From: an uncultured Opitutales bacterium
Lineage (GTDB): Bacteria > Verrucomicrobiota > Verrucomicrobiia > Opitutales > Seribacteraceae
DNA length: 64,000 bases
Direction of reading: 5' to 3'
Assembly (NCBI GenBank): GCA_943789375.1
Contig: CALSTX010000006.1
Location: 111,022-175,021 of the forward strand
Part shown: piece after piece, positions 1,587-61,337 of the stretch
Position numbering within the stretch: position 1 is the first letter of the stretch
How the letters are laid out: each line of letters begins with the position of its first letter
Program-made: the position numbers and the translations under genes
Notes under the pieces: model-generated
Told to the model about the DNA's origin: nothing
What the model saw: only the letters and a program-made list of their open reading frames with translations
The model's database searches: none

Positions 1587-1961
1587 CTAAAGGTCGCTTG
1601 GGGTTAGTTTTTCCGCGTCTTTCCAAAGGTGGTCCAATGCATAGTTTTCACGCTGTTCTTTTGAAAATAGGTGAACCACAAAGTCAATGGCATCTAGGAT
1701 AAGCCATCCACTTGGTTGAAACCGGTCTTTTGATAAGATTTCTATATTATTTTCTTTCAAGGTTTTTTCTACATTGTTGCGCAGAGCCTTGAGGTGAGGA
1801 TCGGAAGTCCCGGTTGCGATAATGAAGCAATCTGTAAGAGGAGACTTTTCCCCAAAATAGAGAAGTTGGAGATCTTCCGCTTTCTTATCAAGTAATGCTT
1901 CACAAGCAAGGGATAGGTTTTGCCTGAGTTCTTTTTTATTTTTAGGAATTGAAAAACTCAT
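1587..1961 (-). CDS. rsfS: ribosome silencing factor RsfS
   Basis: 124 aa; DCFIIATGTSDPHLKALRNNVE and GWLILDAIDFVVHLFSKEQRENYALDHLWKDAE. Confidence 0.92.
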   Translation of the reverse strand: MSFSIPKNKKELRQNLSLACEALLDKKAEDLQLLYFGEKSPLTDCFIIATGTSDPHLKALRNNVEKTLKENNIEILSKDRFQPSGWLILDAIDFVVHLFSKEQRENYALDHLWKDAEKLTPSDL

Positions 1962-1963
1962 AT

Positions 1964-2575
1964 TTAATTCGAGTAGGTTAATAAATGTTTGGTTTGGAGA
2001 TAGGTGTAAACATCGTCGGGAACCATGCCTTTGATGGAGTCGCCTCTATGGAGATGATCGCGAATAGATGTGGAAGAAGCTGAAAATAACGAGTTATTCA
2101 TTAAAGTAAAGCTAAGCTCAGGGAAGGAGGGATGGGAAGGATGAAGATGATCCCTTGCAAAAACAATAAAATGAACAGCTAGGGATAGTTCATTAAGAAA
2201 CTTCCATTTGGATAATCGAACGAACTGATCGTAGCCAATAAGTAGAAGGATCTCCGCATCTGGGTATAACTTTTTGACCTCTTGGATCGTTTGCCAGGTG
2301 TAAGAGGTTTGTTTTTGATTTATTTCAAAATCGAAAATACTTATTTTTGGGTTCTTTTTCGCTACCAGCCTAACCATCTCAAGCCTTTGCTCGGCCGTGA
2401 ATAAAGGTGGATGGTTTCGTAGTGGTGCCTGATAAGCTGGGCACAGAAGAAGTTGATCTAATTGAAATTCTTTGATCGCTTCTTCAGAAATGAATTTATG
2501 ACCATTGTGGATAGGGTCAAATGTTCCCCCTAAAAAACCAATTTTGCGCAGAGGTGGGCCAGATAAATTAGGCAT
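1964..2575 (-). CDS. nadD: nicotinate-nucleotide adenylyltransferase
   Basis: GFLGGTFDPIHNGH nucleotidyltransferase motif and SSTSIRDHLHRGDSIKGMVPDDVYTYL. Confidence 0.93.
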   Translation of the reverse strand: MPNLSGPPLRKIGFLGGTFDPIHNGHKFISEEAIKEFQLDQLLLCPAYQAPLRNHPPLFTAEQRLEMVRLVAKKNPKISIFDFEINQKQTSYTWQTIQEVKKLYPDAEILLLIGYDQFVRLSKWKFLNELSLAVHFIVFARDHLHPSHPSFPELSFTLMNNSLFSASSTSIRDHLHRGDSIKGMVPDDVYTYLQTKHLLTYSN

Positions 2576-2581
2576 GCAAAA

Positions 2582-3937
2582 TTACAGTGCCCGTCCTTCA
2601 GATTTTTCAAATAAGGTAAACATTCTACCTTTCCTGAAATAAGTGACCTGCCCAGAAGAAGAGACGACAAGAGCGAGAGAATCAGTGACAAATGTAATAG
2701 CTGCCGCTGCCGCGTGGCGGGTACCGAGACCTCCGGGTAAATCAATTTCATCTGCCTTAGCTTGGATTAAACATCCAGCTGATTCAACCACGCCATCTCC
2801 TCGCAAAATAAAGGCACCATCAATCAAGGCTAGTTCCTTAATGGTCTCATCCATAAAAGGGTTCAATATACTACGATCCTCAGCTCCGTATCCGTGGAAT
2901 GGGTTAAGTACCAATTGTTTAGATCTTTTAATCACTTCTTCGTGATCACCGAGCACGAACATAGCTCCGATTGACTGCCCCTCGCGTCCAGCGGTAGCCA
3001 GGTCGGTCGCGATAGCGGTAATTCTCTCTAAGGCTTCAGCCGAAACATCATTGGGTAACATCTCATCACCCTGTCCAATTACAGATTCAAACTCTTCATC
3101 TACATCAACGACCAGAACAGTATCAAATTGCCCACTTCCGGGTATCCCTCCAATACAGCAAACTCGATCTTGGAAACCGAAAATATCACGGGTTAAGCCA
3201 AGGAGGATGGCTGCTCGTAACTGTGACAACCGAGAACGGGATAATGTACGCACCGCAAGGGTAGCATCCGCACGATGATGTGCTTGATCTTCTTCTGACA
3301 CTCCTTCTCCCGCCAAAACAACCTTAAATGTAGGAAACGTCATTCTTGGAGCTAAGCTTGGAGGAAACACATCCGTAAAAACTAAAATAGTTGAGCATTC
3401 TGCAGCCTTAGCTATTTTTGCAGCTTCGTCTGTCAAGAGTTTGTTAAATTTGGTTCTCCTTCGGGCTGGGCGGTCATCAGTTCCAATAAAAGCACTTCTA
3501 ACTGCGGTCTTAAACTCAGCTTTTTCCCGTGCCATCCACAACTGATCCATGGTAGATTTGTCTTGGAATGTGCGGGCAAGGGAAGCAAGGAAGGAAAGGT
3601 AATTCTTCGCTTTTTTACTAGCCAGAAGAAGAAAAACAAATCGGATATCTTCGTAACTGTCTTTCCCTTCGAAAGTGAGCCCAGCAGGGCATCTGCCAAT
3701 AGCCAGGGCGTAAGGTCTTTTCATGTCAACCCGAGCATGGGGGAGGGCCACACCTTCCCCGATGTAGCTAGTCATTGAATGCTCGCGATCCACTAGCTCA
3801 TTGAGTACTTTTCTTCGTTTGGGGGCAGTTGGAAGTGCGGTTCCAAAGGTGTTTAATAGTTCAGAGTATGCAGATTTTAAATCTTTACTGGAAAGATCAA
3901 TAATTCGATTACTCGCAATGTATAAGTCAATTCTCAT
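2582..3937 (-). CDS. PTS EIIA-like domain fused to a diadenylate cyclase (DAC/DisA_N) domain
   Basis: N-terminus SYIGEGVALPHARVDMKRPYALAIG (EIIA type 2 active-His context); C-terminus IDGAFILRGDGVVESAG and LPGGLGTRHAAAAAITFVTDSLALVVSSSGQVTYFRKG (DAC DGA and GTRH motifs). Confidence 0.85.
   Translation of the reverse strand: MRIDLYIASNRIIDLSSKDLKSAYSELLNTFGTALPTAPKRRKVLNELVDREHSMTSYIGEGVALPHARVDMKRPYALAIGRCPAGLTFEGKDSYEDIRFVFLLLASKKAKNYLSFLASLARTFQDKSTMDQLWMAREKAEFKTAVRSAFIGTDDRPARRRTKFNKLLTDEAAKIAKAAECSTILVFTDVFPPSLAPRMTFPTFKVVLAGEGVSEEDQAHHRADATLAVRTLSRSRLSQLRAAILLGLTRDIFGFQDRVCCIGGIPGSGQFDTVLVVDVDEEFESVIGQGDEMLPNDVSAEALERITAIATDLATAGREGQSIGAMFVLGDHEEVIKRSKQLVLNPFHGYGAEDRSILNPFMDETIKELALIDGAFILRGDGVVESAGCLIQAKADEIDLPGGLGTRHAAAAAITFVTDSLALVVSSSGQVTYFRKGRMFTLFEKSEGRAL
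2603..3010 (-). other. predicted DAC (c-di-AMP synthase) domain within 2582..3937
   Basis: DGA motif at 2813..2821 and GTRH motif at 2714..2725 (minus strand); domain limits approximate. Confidence 0.75.
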
Positions 3938-3992
3938 CGCTCAAAGGCAGGCTAGCCGGCATACGGCATGCCGAAAAAAAAAAACGGGCAAT

Positions 3993-4460
3993 TTACTTTT
4001 CCCACTCGAGGGCACCGCTTTTTAATTCGTAAATTAAGCCCGCAACAAGCACGAATGTGAAGAAAAGCATTGGCCCTAAGATTGGAATCCCTGCCGCCAC
4101 AAAATCACGGTGCGTTAATACCCAAGGGATTAGGAAAACTACATCAATATCAAATAGGATAAAAAGCATAGCCGTAACATAAAACTTTACAGAATAACGA
4201 GTTTCTCCCTTTGTATCAGCAGCTAATCCACATTCATAGGGAGAATCCTTGATTTTACTCCGAGTAGCACGCTGACCGAAGATATGACTAGCAACAAGTA
4301 TTCCTACACCGATGCTGAGAGCAATGAATATTTGTATTAAAACGGGTAAATAATCGCTTAATGTCACGCCGCAATTTTTACTGGAATGTAAGTGCTGGGC
4401 AAGATTATTCGTTTTATTGAATACATTCCTTGCATTCTGAATGCTTGCCTTTCCTACCAA
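3993..4460 (-). CDS. nuoA: NADH-quinone oxidoreductase subunit A (true start probably downstream of the listed ORF start)
   Basis: SPYECGLAADTKGETRYSVKFYVTAMLFILFDIDVVFLIPW is the NuoA signature. Confidence 0.9.
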   Translation of the reverse strand: MVGKASIQNARNVFNKTNNLAQHLHSSKNCGVTLSDYLPVLIQIFIALSIGVGILVASHIFGQRATRSKIKDSPYECGLAADTKGETRYSVKFYVTAMLFILFDIDVVFLIPWVLTHRDFVAAGIPILGPMLFFTFVLVAGLIYELKSGALEWEK

Positions 4461-4521
4461 TAATACCTTTAAAAGGTGTATGAATTTAAATTACCGTTCT
4501 CTTAAGGATAAAAAAAATAAA

Positions 4522-4905
4522 ATGAAAAAAAAGGCTTTTACCTTAGTTGAGATTTTAATTGTACTTGCTCTGATTGGAATAATTGCAGGTTTATCCATGA
4601 GTAATATAGGTAGTATCTTTGGTGGTTCTAAAGTGAAAGCCGCTCAGCAGTGGGTAAATAGTACAGGAGAGGCTTATGTCACGAGTTATCTCACCTTGGT
4701 TGGGGAGTACCCAAATAGTTTAAGCGATTTACGAACTCCTCCAAGCGGTATCCCTCCCTTTGTCAAACGGGCATCTGACTTAAATGATCCCTGGAAGAAC
4801 CCATACCAATACCGTTATCCTGGTACAAATAACCCAAGCAGCTTTGATTTATTTACATCTGCTCCTGATGGAAAAGTAATTGGTAATTGGGATACCGGAA
4901 ATTGA
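4522..4905 (+). CDS. gspG: type II secretion major pseudopilin GspG-like
   Basis: MKKKAFTLVEILIVLALIGIIAGLS prepilin N-terminus; DPWKNPYQYRYPGTNNPSSFDLFTSAPDGK is the GspG calcium-binding-type C-terminus. Confidence 0.9.
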   Translation: MKKKAFTLVEILIVLALIGIIAGLSMSNIGSIFGGSKVKAAQQWVNSTGEAYVTSYLTLVGEYPNSLSDLRTPPSGIPPFVKRASDLNDPWKNPYQYRYPGTNNPSSFDLFTSAPDGKVIGNWDTGN

Positions 4906-5446
4906 GTTGACTTCGCTGAAGCGGGTAAAATCCATTCAAGCTTTTAGCTTGATCGAGATATTGCTCGTTCTTGCTTTACTTTCGGTTCTTGCCGGAGTAG
5001 TTGCTGGAAACTTAGGAGCTTTTATTAAGGGAGCGAACTATGAACCCCCCCAACGTGTTTTAAAGAAAGCAGTTTTGGATGCTGTTTATTTCAGCAGTGA
5101 ACGTAAGCGAGCAACTTTTCTTAGCTATGATGAAGAAAATGCTACCTTCTTGGTAAGCGATTCGATGGGTGGAACTTTGGCAGAGCACCGAGTGTATCAG
5201 GACTTAGGTGACGAAATTAAACAAGATGGGGCTAATATTCCCAAAGTGTCCTTTCTAGCAGTTGGGCCACTTTCTGGCGTTGATGGAGATGACTCCAAAT
5301 ATGATGAGGACGAGTTGTTACTTCAACGCATACCATTCCACTCTGGTAGCAGTATTCCATTTCAGGCAACTTTGGAATTTGGAGGTCAAGAAACTGAAAT
5401 GTATTTTGATCCATTTTCGGGCTATGTTCTAAAAGGTGAGGAATGA
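4880..5446 (+). CDS. gspH: type II secretion pseudopilin, GspH-like (start uncertain)
   Basis: QAFSLIEILLVLALLSVLAGVVAG prepilin N-terminus; position in gsp cluster. Confidence 0.75.
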   Translation: MVIGIPEIELTSLKRVKSIQAFSLIEILLVLALLSVLAGVVAGNLGAFIKGANYEPPQRVLKKAVLDAVYFSSERKRATFLSYDEENATFLVSDSMGGTLAEHRVYQDLGDEIKQDGANIPKVSFLAVGPLSGVDGDDSKYDEDELLLQRIPFHSGSSIPFQATLEFGGQETEMYFDPFSGYVLKGEE

Positions 5447-5943
5447 AATGTTTTCGGGTTAAAATACATTCTTCGACCCAAGGCTTTATGCTCATTGAGG
5501 TCTTGGTGGCTTTGGCATTATTTGGAATGGCTTCCGTTTTTTTAGTGGATGGAATTTCTGTGGCATCTCGTACAATGAGACTAATGAAGGATACCAGGGA
5601 AATGGAACAAGATCTTCTTTGGGCAAGGAGTCAGATCTTCAAAGAACATCGATACGAAGAGCTTGAAGATGGAGGAGAGATCGAAGCCTTGACCATTGGT
5701 GAGATTCTTTGGGAAACTGAAATTGAAATGACCAATGTACTGGATCTGTACAGGGTTAAATTATCCCTAGAATACGACGGGAATGATGAGCTGGGCATAG
5801 ATTCTGGTACTAGGGTTTCGACGATGTTGATTCTTCGTCCTGGTTGGGCAAATGGGTCAGATTTTTCCACTGAACGCACCCGATTGCTTGAGGATAAAAA
5901 GGATAAGATTCGAAATATGAGAGAGGAGAGGCAAAGGAAGTGA
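5443..5943 (+). CDS. gspI: type II secretion pseudopilin, GspI-like
   Basis: TQGFMLIEVLVALALFGMASVFLVDG; size and order; short overlaps with both neighbours. Confidence 0.75.
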   Translation: MKCFRVKIHSSTQGFMLIEVLVALALFGMASVFLVDGISVASRTMRLMKDTREMEQDLLWARSQIFKEHRYEELEDGGEIEALTIGEILWETEIEMTNVLDLYRVKLSLEYDGNDELGIDSGTRVSTMLILRPGWANGSDFSTERTRLLEDKKDKIRNMREERQRK

Positions 5944-12406: not shown

Positions 12407-14632
12407 ATGAAGGAAGAAGAGAAGCTAGATGCAGAGGATTCAGAAACCACCAATGATTCTGTCCCAGAGCTTTCTATAGATTCCCAGGATCATATGACCT
12501 GGTGGCCTGAGTTATCTGATTTAGACCGGCTCAATGTACTTGGTGCTCATAGAGAGGATCGAGCCCGCCTATTAGCTTCTAAAGATTCAAGGTCAGTAGA
12601 AGTGACTATGAAAGAAATTGCCCGAAAGTCAGGTTATTCTTTTGTGGAGGAGTTTAACTTATCCAAAAACCCTACGAAACTTCTGCCTCTAAGGCTAATT
12701 CACTCCTTTTCTTGTTTGCCGGTTGTGCCTGCGATTGAAGGGTCCAAAGAAAAACCTAAGGTTTTGTGTGTGGATGATGAAAAAGCTATTCTTCAGGGTT
12801 TCAAACTTCACTTGAGGAACGATTTTGAAGTACATGTGGCTTCGTGCGGAGATGAGGGGATAGAAATATTTAAAAAAGAAGGTGATTTCTCCATAGTTTT
12901 ATCGGATATGAGAATGCCTGGGATGAGTGGTTCAAGTATGTTAACTGAAATTAGAAAGATAGACCCTCAGATTGTAAGTGTTTTAATTACTGGTCATTCA
13001 GATTTTGAGATTGCCAAAGATGCGATTAATTCAGGAAACGTTTTCAAAATTTTAACCAAGCCCTGCCCAGCTGAAAAATTAATTGAAGTGCTGAAAGATG
13101 GCGTGAAGCAATTTGACCAAAATGTTGGTAACAAGCTTCTATTGAAACCTGATGGTGGCAATATACACCTTTTAACATTATGGCCGCCAACTGAAAGAAT
13201 GAGCCGTTGGGTATTTGCGGTATCTGGCCGTAAACCTATCTGGTTTCTGGGGCTTCCTGAGAAGGTAACCAGTGCAATTACTGAAAACTTTGGTATCGGA
13301 GCTGATAGCCTAGATGATTCTGATCTGGATATTGACGGGGAGGAAGAACAGCAGGACGATTTAGAGGATCAAAATGCCGCTATTATTCGTTTTGTAAACG
13401 AGGTCATTCAAAAAGCGATAGTAGATCGGGCTACTGATATTCACTTTGAACCTCACAAAGAAACCCTACAGATTAGATATAGAATTGATGGGCAACTGGT
13501 ACCTGTACGGGTTCCAGATAATCTTCGAAGTTTTCAAGATGCGATCATTTCCCGGATAAAAATAATGGGGGGGATTAATATATCTGAAAAGAGAAGGCCT
13601 CAAGGTGGGCGGATTACCTTTAACCATGGTCAAAGTGATCTTGATATCCGGGTCTCCACCTTGCCCACATTGTATGGAGAAAGTATCAGCCTGCGCCTGC
13701 TCAATGAAAAGTCTCAACCCCTCTCCATGCAGGAACTCGGGCTTCTTGGGCAGGATGAAAAAAACATTGTCAATGTCTTAGAAAAACCACACGGCATTGT
13801 GTTGGTTACCGGACCCACAGGTTCAGGTAAATCGACTTCATTAACCGCATTCATTCGAAGGATTCATAAGCCGGAAAGAAGGATAATGACAGTTGAAGAT
13901 CCAGTGGAATATGAAGTTGCTGGAATTAACCAAACGCAGGTTAATGCAGAGATAGGATTTACTTTTGCGAGTGCACTTAGAGAGATTTTGCGACAAGACC
14001 CCGATGTTATCATGGTCGGAGAAATTAGGGACCGAGAAACGGCAGATATTGCCATTCGAGCATCCCTAACTGGCCACCTTGTTTTAAGTACTCTTCATAC
14101 CAATGATGCACCAGGTGCGATTACTCGATTAGTTGATATGGAAATCGAGCCTTTCTTGATTGCATCCTCCGTGGAGATGGTCATTGCCCAGCGGTTAGTT
14201 CGTAGGCTTTGCCCAAAATGTGCAACGCCAGCCAAAATGAAGGATTCTGAGCTACTTGCTTCTCTTGCTTTATTAGGGGTTGATGCAGAGGAAAGTAAAG
14301 ATGGTAAATCAGTGCTTAATGCGGTTGGTTGTCCAAATTGCCAAAACTTAGGCTACCGCGGCCGTGTTGGTATTTTTGAATTGATGAAAATGAGTGACGC
14401 CATTCACAGTATGGTGATTAAAAATGCTTCAGCTCCTGACATAAGAGAAATTGCATTGGAGGAAGGAATGAGCACACTACAGGAGACTGGTTGGGCCCAG
14501 ATTAAGCGGGGATTCACCACTTTTGAGGAAGTCATCCGCTATTCGGATGGTATGATGGAAGAAGATGGTGAAATCACTGAGATTGATGCACCTGAAGGGT
14601 CTTTACCTCCTGTAACAGAATTTAAGAATTAG
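12407..14632 (+). CDS. gspE: type II secretion ATPase GspE with an internal response-regulator receiver domain
   Basis: GspE core: [82 protein letters not shown]; receiver domain inside the N-terminal region. Confidence 0.93.
12755..13126 (+). other. receiver (REC) domain inserted in the GspE N-terminal domain
   Basis: [28 protein letters not shown] (phospho-acceptor Asp167, codon 12905..12907), [25 protein letters not shown]: acidic pair, Asp, Thr and Lys all present. Confidence 0.93.
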
Positions 14633-15925: not shown

Positions 15926-16879
15926 ATGAGGTTGTTACTTTTTGTTGTATTTTTTTTGGCTGGTTGTGACCAAGAAGCTGAAGAAGGTAAAAAAATTACT
16001 TCTGCCAATTCAGAAGCCAATCTCTTGCAGCGGGCAGCAGCTGAAGGGAAAAGTATTTTAGACGACGGTTCGAAGTATGAAGGTGAAATGGTTCGTGGTA
16101 TGCCCCATGGGTTTGGAAAAAGGAAATTTACGAATGAAGATTTTTTCGAGGGCCAATTTCTCAATGGCGACGCCCATGGTCATGGAACATTGAGGTATAA
16201 GTCTGATGGAAACCTTGAGAAGTATGTGGGTATGTGGGCAAACGGTCTACGTGAAGGCTATGGTACTTTGTATTTCACAGATACATCCCGTATGGTTGGC
16301 CATTGGGCTAACGATTCCCTTCTTTATGGTGAATTTCAAAGGTCAGATGGCGTTAGGATTTCAGGGAAATGGAACCAGCAAACTCTTTCTGAAGGAACCT
16401 TGGACGATGGGTCTGGTAATAAATTTTCTGGTGTGTTCAGTGAATACGGTGGATATAAGGAGGGCACCCTCGAAAGTGACAATGGAAATAAGTACACCGG
16501 AGGCTTTAAGGATAATAGATATCATGGTAAGGGAGTACTGGCCCGCCAAGATGGCTCAATTTATGTGGGTCAATTTTTTGAGGATGAATTTTCGGGCATT
16601 GGTATTTTACTTTTAGGGAATGGAACGAAATATTCTGGTGAATTCGACAAGAATCAACCCTACGGATACGGAGTCCAAACAAATAAGGACGGCATTACTT
16701 ACGCTGGCCTTTGGGAGAATGGAGAGAAAAGTGGAACAGGCACTTTGGACTTTGGGGACGGAACAAGTTTTGTGGGCGAATTTAGGAATGGCTTGGCATA
16801 TGACGGGTTGTACGATTGGGGTGATGGAAGGGTAACTGAATCCTTTCAGAATGAAGATGGAGATTGGGTCGACCGCTAA
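15926..16879 (+). CDS. MORN-repeat lipoprotein
   Basis: Lipobox FFLAGC; about 11 MORN-type repeats such as KYEGEMVRGMPHGFGKRKF, YTGGFKDNRYHGKGVLAR, YAGLWENGEKSGTGTLDF. Confidence 0.8.
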   Translation: MRLLLFVVFFLAGCDQEAEEGKKITSANSEANLLQRAAAEGKSILDDGSKYEGEMVRGMPHGFGKRKFTNEDFFEGQFLNGDAHGHGTLRYKSDGNLEKYVGMWANGLREGYGTLYFTDTSRMVGHWANDSLLYGEFQRSDGVRISGKWNQQTLSEGTLDDGSGNKFSGVFSEYGGYKEGTLESDNGNKYTGGFKDNRYHGKGVLARQDGSIYVGQFFEDEFSGIGILLLGNGTKYSGEFDKNQPYGYGVQTNKDGITYAGLWENGEKSGTGTLDFGDGTSFVGEFRNGLAYDGLYDWGDGRVTESFQNEDGDWVDR

Positions 16880-21947: not shown

Positions 21948-22613
21948 TTACATTAGTTCTACAATCGAGCGAATGGTCAATTCCTTTGGTGAGTCAAAAA
22001 GAATATGAGCTCCTGCTCGGGTTAAGTCAGCCGCGGTTTGAGATGTCTTGATGGCCACAGCCTTCATGCCACCGATTCGGGCAGCTTTTATCCCGTGAGT
22101 GCTGTCTTCAAATACCACGCACTGAGCGGGTGGATAGTGTAGCAGTTCTGCTCCTTTAAGAAAAACTTCAGGGTCGGGTTTTCCCCGAGTCACATTTTCG
22201 GCACAAATTGCACCCTGAAAAAAGGATTCAATCCCAAGTTGCTGGAATGCGAGTTCAATATTTTCCCTTGCTGTTGATGTTCCAATAACGGCAGGTATCT
22301 GATGCATTTGCATTTCCTCTAAAAACCCCCTCATCCCATCAAGGACCTGAATCCCGCTAGATTTTACAAATTGCCTGTAGAGTTTTTCTTTCCTGTCTCC
22401 CCATACTTTTATTTTTTCTGGGTCACTGGACCACCTTAGGACTTCTGGGATAATGACTTCATTTCGCTTGCCAAAGCCTTGCTTGAAATGATTTTTGGGC
22501 AAGGGTAGGGCTACTTCCTCTGCCAAGGCTTCCCAGCTTTTTTCATGCAAAGTTGAAGAGTCAACAATTACGCCATCCCAATCAAATATAAACCCTAGTT
22601 CGGGCATGCTCAA
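21948..22613 (-). CDS. HAD family phosphatase (beta-phosphoglucomutase-like)
   Basis: FIFDWDGVIVDSS, VIGTSTARENIELAF, KPDPEVFLKGAELL, VVFEDSTHGIKAAR; TTG start overlaps the upstream stop (ATG at 22607 is the alternative). Confidence 0.87.
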   Translation of the reverse strand: MSMPELGFIFDWDGVIVDSSTLHEKSWEALAEEVALPLPKNHFKQGFGKRNEVIIPEVLRWSSDPEKIKVWGDRKEKLYRQFVKSSGIQVLDGMRGFLEEMQMHQIPAVIGTSTARENIELAFQQLGIESFFQGAICAENVTRGKPDPEVFLKGAELLHYPPAQCVVFEDSTHGIKAARIGGMKAVAIKTSQTAADLTRAGAHILFDSPKELTIRSIVELM

Positions 22614-24922
22614 TCAATGCTGTACTTTGGTGCAACTGTGATATTTTGGTCTTGCTCATCAGCTAAACTTTTAAGGAATTCCGATTGTAATGCTTCCGGC
22701 GTGGTGGAAGTATTGGAATCAGCCAAAGAGTCGGTTGAGACTGAGTTGTTTGATTCATTCTTGTCATAAACTTCAAGAAAGGTGGGTAGAGGAGGACCAA
22801 TGAGAGGTTCTCTAACTGTGGGTGTGTCATCAGGTTCCTCAAGCACTTTTGTAGTTACCCGTTCGCTGAGGATTTTATTAAGCAAGTCCCGGGTCTCGGT
22901 TGCCTCTGCATTATCAAACCCGAGAAGTTTTTCTTGCTTGGCTAAGGTGTCTCCCAGCGCTTCCATGGCTGCATCCTTTCGGTTGGCTAGGTAGTGGAGT
23001 TTTCCAATTCGAAACATGGTCTGCAAGGTCATGGGGTCCTGTTCTCCCAATATAGCCAATTCAATATCTAAGGTTCTTTCACTCAAGGCATAAGCATCTT
23101 CTTCTTTGCCTAGATCTAAGAAAACATCTGCAAGTTCATTCATCGCACGCAGTGTTTCAGGGTGTTCCAGCCCATATTTTTTTTCCAGCCTCTGTTTGAC
23201 GGCAGTTTGTACCTTTTCCGCTTCACTTAATTTGTCCTGTAAACGATAAATTCGTGCGATCGCTTTGAGGGTGAAAAGAGTCTCTGGGTGCATGTCACCA
23301 AGAGCTTTTTCCTTGGCAGCCTCAATGCGGAGGTAAAGATCAAGGGCCCGGTCCAAGTCTTTTCTGCCTGCCACTATTTCTGCGAGTGAATCCATTGCGC
23401 CAAGAGTGTCCGGGTGAGTCTCGCCAAGAATGGTGGTGAGCTTGCTGACTAATTCTTTAGAGAGTTTTTCTGCATCATCTAGTTTATCTGATTTGCGCAG
23501 TGCTTCCACCAGAACTTGTCCTCTTCGAAGACTCAGAACATGGTTTTCTCCGAGGTGTAATCGAGAACGTTCAAAAACATTTCGGATTAAGCTTTCAGCT
23601 TGGGATATTTTTTCACGAGCAATGAAAATTTTTGAAAGTTCTGTTTTACACTTTAACATTAACGGGTCTTCCTGTGTACGGTTTTGATCGGTGAGGAAGG
23701 ATAAGGTTTCAGTGCATCGGTCTTCGGCTTGCTCTAATTTACCGATTCGACGAAATACCGTTGCTAAATCAATTTGAGCATCGATTACTTCAATGTGCTC
23801 AGTTCCTAATTCATGGGTTCTCTGTGCGAGCATTTGAACGAGCATCGGTTCCGCTTCAAGGTAATTACCTAAAGCTTCGTGGACCATAGCAATTTCATTC
23901 ATCGCTTTGAGCCGGGTCGGTAATTCTTTTCCAATCTTTTCAGCAAACAAGATCAAAACTCTTTCAAGCTCAGCCTCTGCTTTTTCATAGGAACGAATTG
24001 ATCGATAGGTTTTACCTAGGCAATACCTAATCTCGGCTTCCACTTCTGGTTCTACAGATAACTCGGCCGCTCTTTTGGAGCCTTGGTCCAACATGGCTTT
24101 TAGAAGTTCGGTATCCATGCCAGCCGTATTTTGTGGGTCAAGAGATACAAAAAGTTCCTGTACGAAATTGGTAATGGTTTGGGTTTTGGCAAGTTCTTCT
24201 TCCGCAGCCTGTCTCTCGGCAACGGCACTTGCCCGAGCTAGGGTGGCTTCCTGTTGTTGGTAGAAGGCATAAATGGCCAAGCCAATAGCAGAGAGAGCAA
24301 GGACCGTGGATGCGGTTGCTATCCAGGCAAGACGACGTTGCCGGGCAAGCATATCTCTTTGCTTTAATTCATCGAGCCCGACACCTAAGAGCCCAGCCAT
24401 GACCTTGAGCAGGGCATCTTTTTCTCCGTCTGCGTATTCCCGAAGATCAGCAGCACCTGGCTCATGGATTTGTTCAGTGATTTCACCTGACTGATCGATT
24501 CTTCTACGAGCAGCTAGAGGCAAGCACTCTTTATCGGGGTCGTTTTTTACATCAGCCGCCATCGGTTCTCCATCGACAACCAGGCAAAGGACGCGATCTG
24601 CTTTCCCCATCGCTTTGAACATCCTGATTTCTTCATTTACCCAACGAGATTTTACAGCATGGGGAGAGCATAGGACTATCAGGTGTGAAGAATCATGAAG
24701 GGCTTGCTCAATGAGCGGTCCTAACTGAGCAGCTCCCGCAAGTTCATCCCGGTCGCGGAAAATTGGATAAAGGCGGGAAGGGACAGGGCCAAACTGGCTA
24801 TTTTTACCGATTAAGTGCTTGGGTACACGGAAGTTTTCCAGCTTTTTGCGAAGCCAGCGAGCCCGTTCTTCATCCCTGTGTGCATAGGTTATGAAGGCTT
24901 TGTACTTATATTGGCTATTCAT
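22610..24922 (-). CDS. TIR domain - transmembrane - TPR protein
   Basis: N-terminal YKAFITYAHRDEERARWLRKKLE...LYPIFRDRDELAG...SRWVNEEIRMF (TIR); TM LAWIATASTVLALSAIGLAIYAFY; kinesin-light-chain-type TPRs (LGEQDPMTLQTMFRIGKLHY etc.). Confidence 0.85.
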   Translation of the reverse strand: MNSQYKYKAFITYAHRDEERARWLRKKLENFRVPKHLIGKNSQFGPVPSRLYPIFRDRDELAGAAQLGPLIEQALHDSSHLIVLCSPHAVKSRWVNEEIRMFKAMGKADRVLCLVVDGEPMAADVKNDPDKECLPLAARRRIDQSGEITEQIHEPGAADLREYADGEKDALLKVMAGLLGVGLDELKQRDMLARQRRLAWIATASTVLALSAIGLAIYAFYQQQEATLARASAVAERQAAEEELAKTQTITNFVQELFVSLDPQNTAGMDTELLKAMLDQGSKRAAELSVEPEVEAEIRYCLGKTYRSIRSYEKAEAELERVLILFAEKIGKELPTRLKAMNEIAMVHEALGNYLEAEPMLVQMLAQRTHELGTEHIEVIDAQIDLATVFRRIGKLEQAEDRCTETLSFLTDQNRTQEDPLMLKCKTELSKIFIAREKISQAESLIRNVFERSRLHLGENHVLSLRRGQVLVEALRKSDKLDDAEKLSKELVSKLTTILGETHPDTLGAMDSLAEIVAGRKDLDRALDLYLRIEAAKEKALGDMHPETLFTLKAIARIYRLQDKLSEAEKVQTAVKQRLEKKYGLEHPETLRAMNELADVFLDLGKEEDAYALSERTLDIELAILGEQDPMTLQTMFRIGKLHYLANRKDAAMEALGDTLAKQEKLLGFDNAEATETRDLLNKILSERVTTKVLEEPDDTPTVREPLIGPPLPTFLEVYDKNESNNSVSTDSLADSNTSTTPEALQSEFLKSLADEQDQNITVAPKYSID

Positions 24923-57917: not shown

Positions 57918-59636
57918 ATGAACTCCACTGATGAATTCTTAATCGACGCCTTCAAGCAACAAGGTTTGATTACTGATGATATTATTTCAGAGGTGGAGGA
58001 AGGATTGTCTGCCCAGGCAGATGGGCAATTAACTGATCAAGACCAGATGCTCATGGAAGCCCTGCTTTCTCGTATCGGATTGCCCCACCAAGATGTGGTT
58101 GATTTCTTGGCCGCTGAGTTAAACATGGAGGCGGTCGATATGTCACAAATTGACCCACCAGCTGAAATTATATCTTTACTACAAGCTACTTGGGCTAGGC
58201 AGTATGAAGCTTTTCCGATTGCAGCAAGCACCACGGAGGTCGAAATCGTTTTTGGCAATCCGCTTAACGAAGACGGGTTGGAAAACCTGACACATCTATT
58301 GGGTAAAGCTATCTACCCCAAAATTGCTTACAGAGGTGATGTGCTTAAGGCAATTGATACGGCATATGGATCAGCTGAAGAACGGAAAATGGATGAGTTT
58401 TTCGAGGGCGTAGAGAGTGAAAATATTGAAATTGGGGACGGGGTCAGACCGGAAGATGTCAGCGAAGAAGACGCCCCTATCATCAAGTATGTTCATTCGG
58501 TGATTAAAGATGCATTGGAGATGCGGGCTTCAGATATTCATATGGAGCCGTTGGAGAAAAAATTTAGAATTCGTTTCCGTGTGGACGGTAGGTTGCAGGA
58601 GCAGCCTGACCCGCCTAAGCGGCTCCAACCTGCTATTATTTCAAGGACTAAGCTCATGGCGAATGTGAGTTTGGCTGAGAAAAGAGTTCCTTTAGATGGG
58701 CGTATCAATGTGAAGGTCGGAGATAAAGTAATTGATCTGCGTGTTTCTACCCTGCCTACCGTGCATGGCGAAAGCATTGTTATGCGTATATTGGATAAGG
58801 AGAGTCTTAGTTTAGGCCTTCCCCAGTTGGGTTTTTTCTCCGATGATCAAACTGTTTTTGAAAAAGTAATTAATATGCCTGACGGTATATTTTTAGTTAC
58901 GGGGCCGACAGGTTCTGGTAAATCTACGACTTTATATTCTGCGTTAAATGTAATTAACCAGTCTGATCGTAAGATTATCACAGTTGAAGATCCAGTGGAG
59001 TATGAAGTGTCTGGTATCAATCAGGTTCAGGTGAGGTCTGAGGTCGGAATGACCTTCTCTGCTGCCCTGCGTGCCATGCTCCGGCAGGCTCCAAACATTG
59101 TGATGGTCGGTGAGATTCGAGACCTGGAGACTGCGGAAATTGCGATTAATGCATCCCTTACCGGGCATATGGTTTTCAGTACCTTGCATACCAATGATGC
59201 ACCAAGTGCGGTATCTCGCTTAGTTGATATGGGGGTGAAACCCTTTTTGGTTTCTGCATCATTACGAGCTGCGCTTGCCCAAAGACTGGTACGGTCAATT
59301 TGTCAGAATTGTAAGCAACCCTATGAACCGCAAGCTAGTGAGTTATCAGTTTTGGGTATAAATGCTGAACAAGCAGCCAATGCCAGTTTCATGGAAGGGG
59401 CGGGGTGCGACAAGTGTGGAGGTAATGGATTTAGAGGTCGTAAGGGTGTGTTTGAAATTTTTACGGTCAACCAAGAGTTGGAAGAAATGATTTACCACAA
59501 TGTAAGCATTGTGGATCTGCGAAAGAAAGCCAGGGAAATGGGTATGCGCACCATGAGAGAAGATGGCTTTCGTAAGGTACTTGCCGGGGTGACTACCTTG
59601 AGCGAAGTTATGCTTGTAACCACGGAAGAGGAGTAA
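57918..59636 (+). CDS. PilB/GspE family secretion ATPase (copy 1)
   Basis: [84 protein letters not shown]. Confidence 0.92.
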   Translation: MNSTDEFLIDAFKQQGLITDDIISEVEEGLSAQADGQLTDQDQMLMEALLSRIGLPHQDVVDFLAAELNMEAVDMSQIDPPAEIISLLQATWARQYEAFPIAASTTEVEIVFGNPLNEDGLENLTHLLGKAIYPKIAYRGDVLKAIDTAYGSAEERKMDEFFEGVESENIEIGDGVRPEDVSEEDAPIIKYVHSVIKDALEMRASDIHMEPLEKKFRIRFRVDGRLQEQPDPPKRLQPAIISRTKLMANVSLAEKRVPLDGRINVKVGDKVIDLRVSTLPTVHGESIVMRILDKESLSLGLPQLGFFSDDQTVFEKVINMPDGIFLVTGPTGSGKSTTLYSALNVINQSDRKIITVEDPVEYEVSGINQVQVRSEVGMTFSAALRAMLRQAPNIVMVGEIRDLETAEIAINASLTGHMVFSTLHTNDAPSAVSRLVDMGVKPFLVSASLRAALAQRLVRSICQNCKQPYEPQASELSVLGINAEQAANASFMEGAGCDKCGGNGFRGRKGVFEIFTVNQELEEMIYHNVSIVDLRKKAREMGMRTMREDGFRKVLAGVTTLSEVMLVTTEEE

Positions 59637-59642
59637 TTGATT

Positions 59643-61337
59643 ATGTTGTATATCGATTATAATTCTACTCTTCGTGACATTTTTAATCAGGTTGAAGGTA
59701 TCTCGCAGCATGGTCTTGATGAATTATACAACCAGGAGGTTAAAGAGGGTAAAAGATCTTTTGCCGAATCTATTATTAGTTCGGGACTGGCCTCAAAGGA
59801 AGACATTTTCAGTCTTGTTTCAGAATACCTTGGTTGTGAATTGCAGGTTGGAGATGTTGGTGAAATCGATCCTGATACTTTACGGGTGATAGAGCCAGAT
59901 ATCGCAAGGCAGTATGGGATTGTACCTCTGTACTTATCGGAAGGTGGTGTCCACTTTCTTGCGTCAGACCCATTTAATTCATCGATTATTGATGATCTTA
60001 CTTTTGCATTGGATTTAGAAATTTTCCTGGTTGTTTGTGACCCGGACCATCTTAGTACACTGCTAGATCACTATTATCCTTCCGAGGAGAACTCCATTCA
60101 GGATTTACTGGGAGATGAAGGATTTGATGAATTTGAAAATTTAGACGATACCAAGGAATCTGATTTAACTCAGGCGGCTAATGAGACACCCATTATTCGG
60201 TTCGTTAATTTAGTCATACAGCAAGCCATCCGAGCCCAGGCCTCTGACATTCATTTCGAACCTTTTGAGCAAGAGTTCAGGATTCGTTATCGCGTGGATG
60301 GAGCCTTATATGAAATGTCTCCCCCTCCCAAAAGCTTGGCTTTGCCGGTTATTTCAAGAATTAAAGTAATTGCGGAGCTTAACATTGCCGAGCATCGGAT
60401 TCCTCAGGATGGAAGAATTAAGATGACCATCGAGGGCAGGGCGGTTGACTTGCGTGTTTCTACTTTGCCCACCCAGTTTGGGGAAAGTGTTGTGCTTCGG
60501 GTACTTGATAAATCTGCAGTTAATTTGGACCTGGATAGCCTGGGGTTACCGGAAAATGTAAAGACCGGCATCCGCGATGCCGTTCGCCGACCCAATGGCA
60601 TCTTCATTGTTACGGGGCCAACGGGTTCAGGGAAAACCACAACCCTCTACAGCGCGCTTAAAGAAGTAAACCAAATGCATACAAAATTACTCACGGCGGA
60701 AGATCCTGTGGAGTATGAAATTGAAGGTATAATGCAGGTTCCCGTTAACCACCAAGTAGGCCTGGACTTTTCTCGGGCACTTCGGGCATTTTTACGGCAA
60801 GATCCGGACAAAATTATGGTTGGTGAGATTCGTGACATTGAAACGGCGAGGATTGCAGTTCAGGCATCTCTTACAGGGCATGTTGTGTTGAGTACCTTAC
60901 ACACAAACGATGCCCCAGGTGCGGTTACCCGACTGGTTGATATGGGGCTACAACCTTTCTTGCTATCTGCATCCTTGGAGTTTGTTCTTGCCCAGCGTTT
61001 GGTCCGTAAAATTTGTTCAGATTGCAGGCAGGAGTTTACGCCTAAGAAAGACTTAATTGAAAACCTTGGACTTAATCCCAACGAGCTCGGAGAAAGAAAG
61101 TTTTTCTTTGGTGGTGGTTGCGATACTTGTAATCAATCTGGATACCGGGGGCGAACCGGTTTATTTGAAATGATCAAGGTAACCGACACCTTTAGGGAGA
61201 TGATCAACTCAGGAGCGGCTACCATGGTTCTTCGACAATGTGCGATCGAGCAGGGGATGAGAACCCTCCGGGAAGATGGCTTGCGTTCAGTTTTTGACGG
61301 TGAAAGTACCGTTGAGGAAGTTTTGAAATATACTTAG
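59643..61337 (+). CDS. PilB/GspE family secretion ATPase (copy 2)
   Basis: [85 protein letters not shown]. Confidence 0.92.

Follow-up and report, generated by a model that had tools for sequence, protein, structure and literature searches.

Background

Can the synthesis of c-di-AMP be placed directly under the control of a phosphorelay? The question is raised by a single reading frame in the genome of an uncultured Opitutales bacterium (GCA_943789375.1, about 92% complete), which encodes a PTS EIIA domain, the receiver of a phosphate relay that ordinarily serves the uptake of sugars, and a diadenylate cyclase (DAC) domain in one polypeptide. We know of no characterised diadenylate cyclase that receives a direct phosphorylation input. 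What such enzymes sense is poorly known, and the clearest cases involve protein partners, such as GlmM (PMC8573169).

We report a computational analysis of this gene, its homologues and the genomes that carry it. All coordinates refer to the window, the whole 64,000-nt stretch of contig CALSTX010000006.1 that was analysed. The reading that we consider rather probable is that of a relay-controlled c-di-AMP synthase, in which the transfer of phosphate from PEP through EI and HPr to His67 of the EIIA domain would set c-di-AMP synthesis.

Domain organisation and conservation of the fusion

Three Pfam profiles match the protein above their cut-offs: PTS_EIIA_2 at residues 42-143 (E 9.2e-19; 68.3 bits, cut-off 27), DacZ_P (PF21755) at residues 167-282 (E 1.4e-11; 44.6 bits, cut-off 27.4) and DAC (PF02457) at residues 314-438 (E 2.3e-20; 72.8 bits, cut-off 27). 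The best NCBIfam cyclase model is that of DacZ (E 2.6e-28), with CdaA, TIGR00159, well behind (E 4e-6). The fusion lies below the cut-offs of both relevant equivalogs, scoring 99.1 bits against 430 for DacZ (NF041371) and 43.3 bits (E 3.2e-11) against 138.7 for PtsN (TIGR01419). An AlphaFold2 model built from 48 sequences has a mean pLDDT of 82.8 and a pTM of 0.60, and is to be read without its inter-domain distances; Foldseek searches with this model recovered PtsN (3urr, E 8e-8, TM-score by target length 0.79) and CdaA structures including 6hvm and 8s45 (E ~3e-7).

The initial annotation had placed a type-2 EIIA at the N-terminus and a DAC domain at the C-terminus, a view that hung on a DAC profile match, and had guessed at a CdaZ-type domain between them. 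The two outer assignments are borne out by the Pfam profiles, that of DAC included, and by the fold, and the guess is supported by the DacZ_P profile. Its coordinates for the reading frame, the His67 codon and the DGA and GTRH motifs proved exact by codon arithmetic (Table 1).

Table 1. Coordinates of the fusion gene, its domains and motifs, and the adjacent genes in the window
Feature	Coordinates	Strand	Basis
EIIA-DacZ_P-DAC fusion protein, 451 aa, probable c-di-AMP synthase	2582..3937	-	ORF, ATG start, Pfam, homologues
PTS EIIA type-2 (PtsN-like) domain, residues 1-150	3488..3937	-	Pfam PF00359, Foldseek PtsN folds
His67, predicted phosphorylation site, in GEGVALPHAR	3737..3739	-	His in 95/96 aligned relatives
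DacZ_P alpha/beta domain, probable sensor, residues 167-282	3092..3439	-	Pfam PF21755, 48/48 homologues
Diadenylate cyclase (DAC) domain, residues 314-438	2624..2998	-	Pfam PF02457, NCBIfam DacZ model, CdaA folds
DGA motif, residues 373-375, Asp373	2813..2821	-	D373 and G374 in 96/96 relatives
GTRH motif, residues 405-408	2714..2725	-	R407 and H408 in 96/96
Ser426, counterpart of ATP-contacting CdaA Ser122	2660..2662	-	96/96; residue role from PMC7288161
NadD-like nucleotidyltransferase gene, downstream, 6-bp gap	1964..2575	-	Pfam CTP_transf_like, E 1e-22
rsfS-like ribosome silencing factor gene, downstream	1587..1961	-	Pfam RsfS, E 6.8e-26
nuoA-like gene, upstream of the fusion	3993..4460	-	Pfam Oxidored_q4, E 6.3e-28

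A whole-genome search matched the fusion in 48 of 57 relatives at E <= 0.001, the match in one of them (G054) being to the EIIA part only. The full-length protein is kept across the Opitutales at 39-98% identity and all three domains were detected in every one of the 48 aligned Opitutales homologues, which excludes both chance and faulty assembly as the source of the fusion. In GTDB genomes, a scan yielded 456 loci encoding relatives of the fusion; the best 80 of these are assigned to Opitutales, Opitutia, Puniceicoccaceae, Coraliomargarita, Cerasicoccus and unnamed Verrucomicrobiota, with one labelled as a Pseudomonadales MAG. No full-length fusion was found in the plasmid and phage collections searched.

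The residues D373, G374, R407, H408 and S426 are invariant among the 96 aligned sequences, and D373 is likewise present in all 20 members of a non-redundant set (70% identity filter). The single aligned sequence that departs from His67 has Tyr in its place (locus L056, from genome G038).

A proposed phosphorelay and the role of the EIIA domain

The host genome encodes EI (591 aa, active-site GGMTSHAVIMAR intact), HPr (99 aa, GVHARPA and KSIMGL intact), the gene of which adjoins that of EI in convergent orientation, and an HPr kinase with an intact P-loop (GESGAGKS). The link from the PTS to c-di-AMP that the initial annotation had drawn depended on the presence of EI and HPr, and both are found. 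Family searches of the host genome, which covered EIIA of type 2, mannose type and glucose type and the PTS_EIIC family of permeases, recovered one type-2 EIIA, the fusion itself, no mannose-type or glucose-type EIIA and no PTS_EIIC. With no second EIIA of these three types to receive phosphate and no PTS_EIIC, this permease-less relay apparently ends, within those types, on the cyclase, to judge from gene content.

Across the 57 relatives, PTS_EIIC was found in one genome, mannose-type EIIA in one (G003) and glucose-type EIIA in none, and most fusion-bearing genomes retain EI and HPr although a second EIIA of the types searched is lacking. On contig C131 of G003 (3394-5613) an extra EI and HPr lie beside this mannose-type EIIA, the only one among the relatives; the segment is possibly contamination or otherwise foreign.

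While the sole EIIA of the searched types and the lack of PTS_EIIC thus favour the earlier link, two relatives tell against it. In G038, Tyr occupies the His67 site in the presence of EI and HPr, and in G041, a reduced genome of 0.9 Mb (93% complete), the fusion and its His are kept with no EI, HPr or HPr kinase detected. The simple rule that loss of EI and HPr brings loss of His67 therefore had a mixed outcome, the relay being lost and the His kept in the one genome and the reverse holding in the other.

Both genomes, and the replacement of R51 in 3 of the 20 non-redundant sequences, would be accommodated if the synthase were active and its EIIA domain were mainly a structural or docking module, the phosphorylation of which is irrelevant to cyclase activity. 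We consider this unlikely, since His67 ranks 12th of the 150 EIIA positions in conservation (column entropy) and is kept in 19 of the 20 non-redundant sequences, and since most of the genomes with the fusion have held on to EI and HPr even though these have no second EIIA, within the types searched, to serve. In addition, 95 of the 96 aligned sequences keep His67, whereas overall identity of the EIIA domain to the consensus falls to 35-66% in distant members of the order.

Somewhat less likely again is a phosphorylated EIIA that acts in trans, on K+ transport or on metabolic enzymes, and is fused to the cyclase for co-expression or localisation only. Free PtsN does work by protein binding, as in E. 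coli, where the unphosphorylated form controls K+/H+ antiport, YcgO (PMC11808508), and in Caulobacter, where EIIANtr~P controls SpoT (PMC4848567); moreover, in G054, which is without DAC, the gene of a P-type cation ATPase is immediately followed by that of a free EIIA. Against this stands the single covalent architecture seen across the order, with DacZ_P interposed between EIIA and DAC, and co-expression alone needs no fusion in every lineage.

The cyclase active site

The DAC domain of the relay-controlled synthase that we favour departs from the canonical GxRHRxA motif, and its counterpart of (V/I)SEE reads VSSSGQ. The initial annotation had noted that Ala replaces the second Arg of RHR and had doubted catalysis on that ground. 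The doubt does not hold, because Ala, Ser or Val is the local norm at this position across the order (RHA in 15, RHS in 4 and RHV in 1 of the 20 non-redundant sequences) and because two haloarchaeal Haladaptatus proteins annotated as DacZ carry GLGTRHHAAAAIT (RHH), with SESD replacing SEE. On the same comparison with members of the order and with the Haladaptatus proteins, we rejected the idea that RHA denotes a dead enzyme.

The ATP pocket of CdaA is made up of Leu31, Asp71, Thr102, Arg103, His104, Ser122 and Glu124 together with three main-chain contacts, and the second Arg of RHR is absent from these ten residues (PMC7288161); Glu124 is without a counterpart in the fusion. The DacZ of Haloferax volcanii is an active, Mn-dependent cyclase (PMC6741144). 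Since the second Arg thus lies outside the CdaA pocket, annotated haloarchaeal DacZ proteins also depart from RHR and the H. volcanii enzyme is active, the DAC domain of the fusion looks catalytically competent despite its RHA, as far as can be read from its residues.

RHA in place of RHR and VSSSGQ in place of (V/I)SEE might instead mark a DAC domain that is inactive or that binds c-di-AMP as a sensor, the protein being a PTS regulator read out by c-di-AMP. This we regard as very improbable in view of the invariance of D373, R407, H408 and S426, the composition of the CdaA pocket (PMC7288161), and the RHH and SESD of annotated haloarchaeal DacZ alongside the activity of the H. volcanii enzyme (PMC6741144). 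Furthermore, the fusion is the sole match to the DAC family in the host genome (a control search of E. coli gave none), so that no other DAC is there to supply c-di-AMP, and yet a PgpH homologue is present. That the fusion is spurious or an annotation artefact has no evidence in its favour and next to no probability, and is already refuted by a full-length frame that stays open in dozens of independent genomes.

Predicted removal and output of c-di-AMP

A c-di-AMP phosphodiesterase, which the initial annotation had named among the partners to look for, is predicted in the host genome: a PgpH homologue of 834 aa (7TMR-HDED, 7TM and HD), encoded after a PhoH-like gene. Of the 28 relatives with a completeness of 90% or more, only G053 and G054 lack PgpH, and the same two genomes alone lack the fusion cyclase; for G053, a genome outside the DAC family search, the lack of DAC is that seen in the protein search alone. 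A hypergeometric estimate puts this co-absence at 1/378, a figure that ignores relatedness and is drawn from two genomes. The joint absence fits a pair of proteins that make and break c-di-AMP. The free type-2 EIIA of G054, a genome with neither DAC nor PgpH, lies with the P-type cation ATPase gene that it directly follows at L067:324-3521 on the forward strand.

The search for c-di-AMP riboswitches (RF00379) gave one match in 57 genomes, and riboswitches were accordingly rejected as the main output of c-di-AMP. The match (64.7 bits) is in G052, an Opitutales genome about 50% complete, at L183:1501-1670 on the reverse strand, upstream of a gene for a KimA-like K+ transporter that matches PDB 6s3k (E 1.2e-47); as a single case, it points to control of K+.

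Proposed mechanism

In the relay-controlled synthase, phosphate would pass from PEP to EI, to HPr and then to His67 of the fused EIIA, the predicted terminal acceptor of a regulatory PTS, and HPr kinase could hold back the relay at the level of HPr. Whether EIIA is phosphorylated would be signalled through DacZ_P and would change how the DAC domains pair or how active they are, by what we infer to be allosteric control, and c-di-AMP synthesis would in this way track the PEP/pyruvate state, that is, the carbon and energy state of the cell. The c-di-AMP so formed would be removed by the PgpH-type phosphodiesterase and would exert at least some of its effects on K+ and on osmotic balance. The control of SpoT in Caulobacter (PMC4848567) and of YcgO in E. 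coli (PMC11808508) offers precedents for an EIIA that governs a second messenger or the flow of K+. As to the sign of control, we lean weakly towards higher cyclase activity in the form with unphosphorylated EIIA, on the model of E. coli, in which it is unphosphorylated PtsN that acts on K+ transport.

A wider proposal, which we put forward only tentatively, is that in the Opitutales, with a PTS that would have no sugar transporter, the whole PEP phosphorelay may be a dedicated line, with the c-di-AMP synthase as its one acceptor as searched, that runs from carbon and energy state through c-di-AMP to K+ and osmotic control.

The fusion suggests a direct dependence of the c-di-AMP level on energy status. 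If this is true, the cyclase would carry its own input as a covalent part with a defined chemistry, a PTS without a permease would gain a function throughout an entire order, and the control of K+ by PtsN, as in proteobacteria, and by c-di-AMP, as in Gram-positives, would be joined in one molecule.

Neighbouring genes and other genes of the window

The fusion gene and the NadD-like gene downstream are probably co-transcribed. The nadD-rsfS neighbourhood is confined to the close vicinity of the window, and nuoA is the wider neighbour of the fusion; a nuoA-like gene lies upstream in most of the loci of the order that were examined, a possible link to respiration.

Elsewhere in the window, a GspE-type secretion ATPase of 741 aa (12407-14632, forward strand) carries, N-terminal to its ATPase domain, the receiver domain of a response regulator (PF00072, E 1.4e-20, residues 119-229), an arrangement through which a two-component system may act directly on the motor of a type II secretion system or pilus. 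Two more GspE/PilB-like ATPases are encoded next to each other, with a GspF/PilC-like protein after them (57918-61337, forward strand; read by eye), which brings the ATPases of this kind in the window to three. A TIR-like domain (ThsB_TIR, E 2.3e-11; TIR_2, E 1.6e-10) is fused to many TPR repeats at 22610-24922 on the reverse strand, and a putative lipoprotein made of MORN repeats is encoded at 15926-16879 on the forward strand.

Comparison with known systems

The architecture of the fusion is probably that of a named class, DacD, which would have been catalogued in outline in 2013; PMC6741144 attributes the class to Corrigan & Gruendling 2013. The identification comes from the taxa that PMC6741144 lists as DacD, namely Lacunisphaera limnophila, Coraliomargarita sp., Puniceicoccaceae, Opitutae and Verrucomicrobia bacteria, which are fusion-bearing taxa; Coraliomargarita and Puniceicoccaceae recur among the best 80 of our 456 loci. 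Our literature search found, as far as it reached, no biochemistry of DacD-class proteins, no analysis of a partner PTS and no paper in which a diadenylate cyclase is connected with an EIIA of the PTS. What appears to be new is the view of the system, with its sole detected EIIA, its lack of a detected permease, the co-absence of cyclase and phosphodiesterase, and a DacZ-like, seemingly competent active site.

The archaeal cyclases DacZ/CdaZ (DacY), of which H. volcanii DacZ is an example, share with the fusion the best-matching DacZ model, RH-x in place of RHR and a similar 'GLGTRH.AAAAIT' region, and in the fusion DacZ_P stands directly before DAC. The fusion differs in its additional EIIA domain, in an identity of about 35% over the DAC part and in a score far below the equivalog cut-off; the Haladaptatus DacZ proteins carry Pfam DACZ_N, whereas the fusion carries DacZ_P.

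With the nitrogen PTS of PtsN/EIIANtr the fusion has in common a type-2 EIIA with a conserved His, the presence of EI and HPr and the lack of PTS_EIIC, and a regulatory role for the EIIA of the fusion and its PTS is probable. Unlike PtsN, the fusion joins EIIA to an enzyme, HPr kinase is also encoded in the genome, and the score lies under the PtsN equivalog cut-off. Finally, the membrane cyclase CdaA/DacA, which was compared through alignments with its PDB entries, shares the DAC catalytic core and fold, and cyclases of the CdaA type occur elsewhere in the phylum, to go by E-values and lengths. Membrane helices at the N-terminus and an RHR motif set CdaA apart from the fusion, which is apparently soluble and carries EIIA and DacZ_P.
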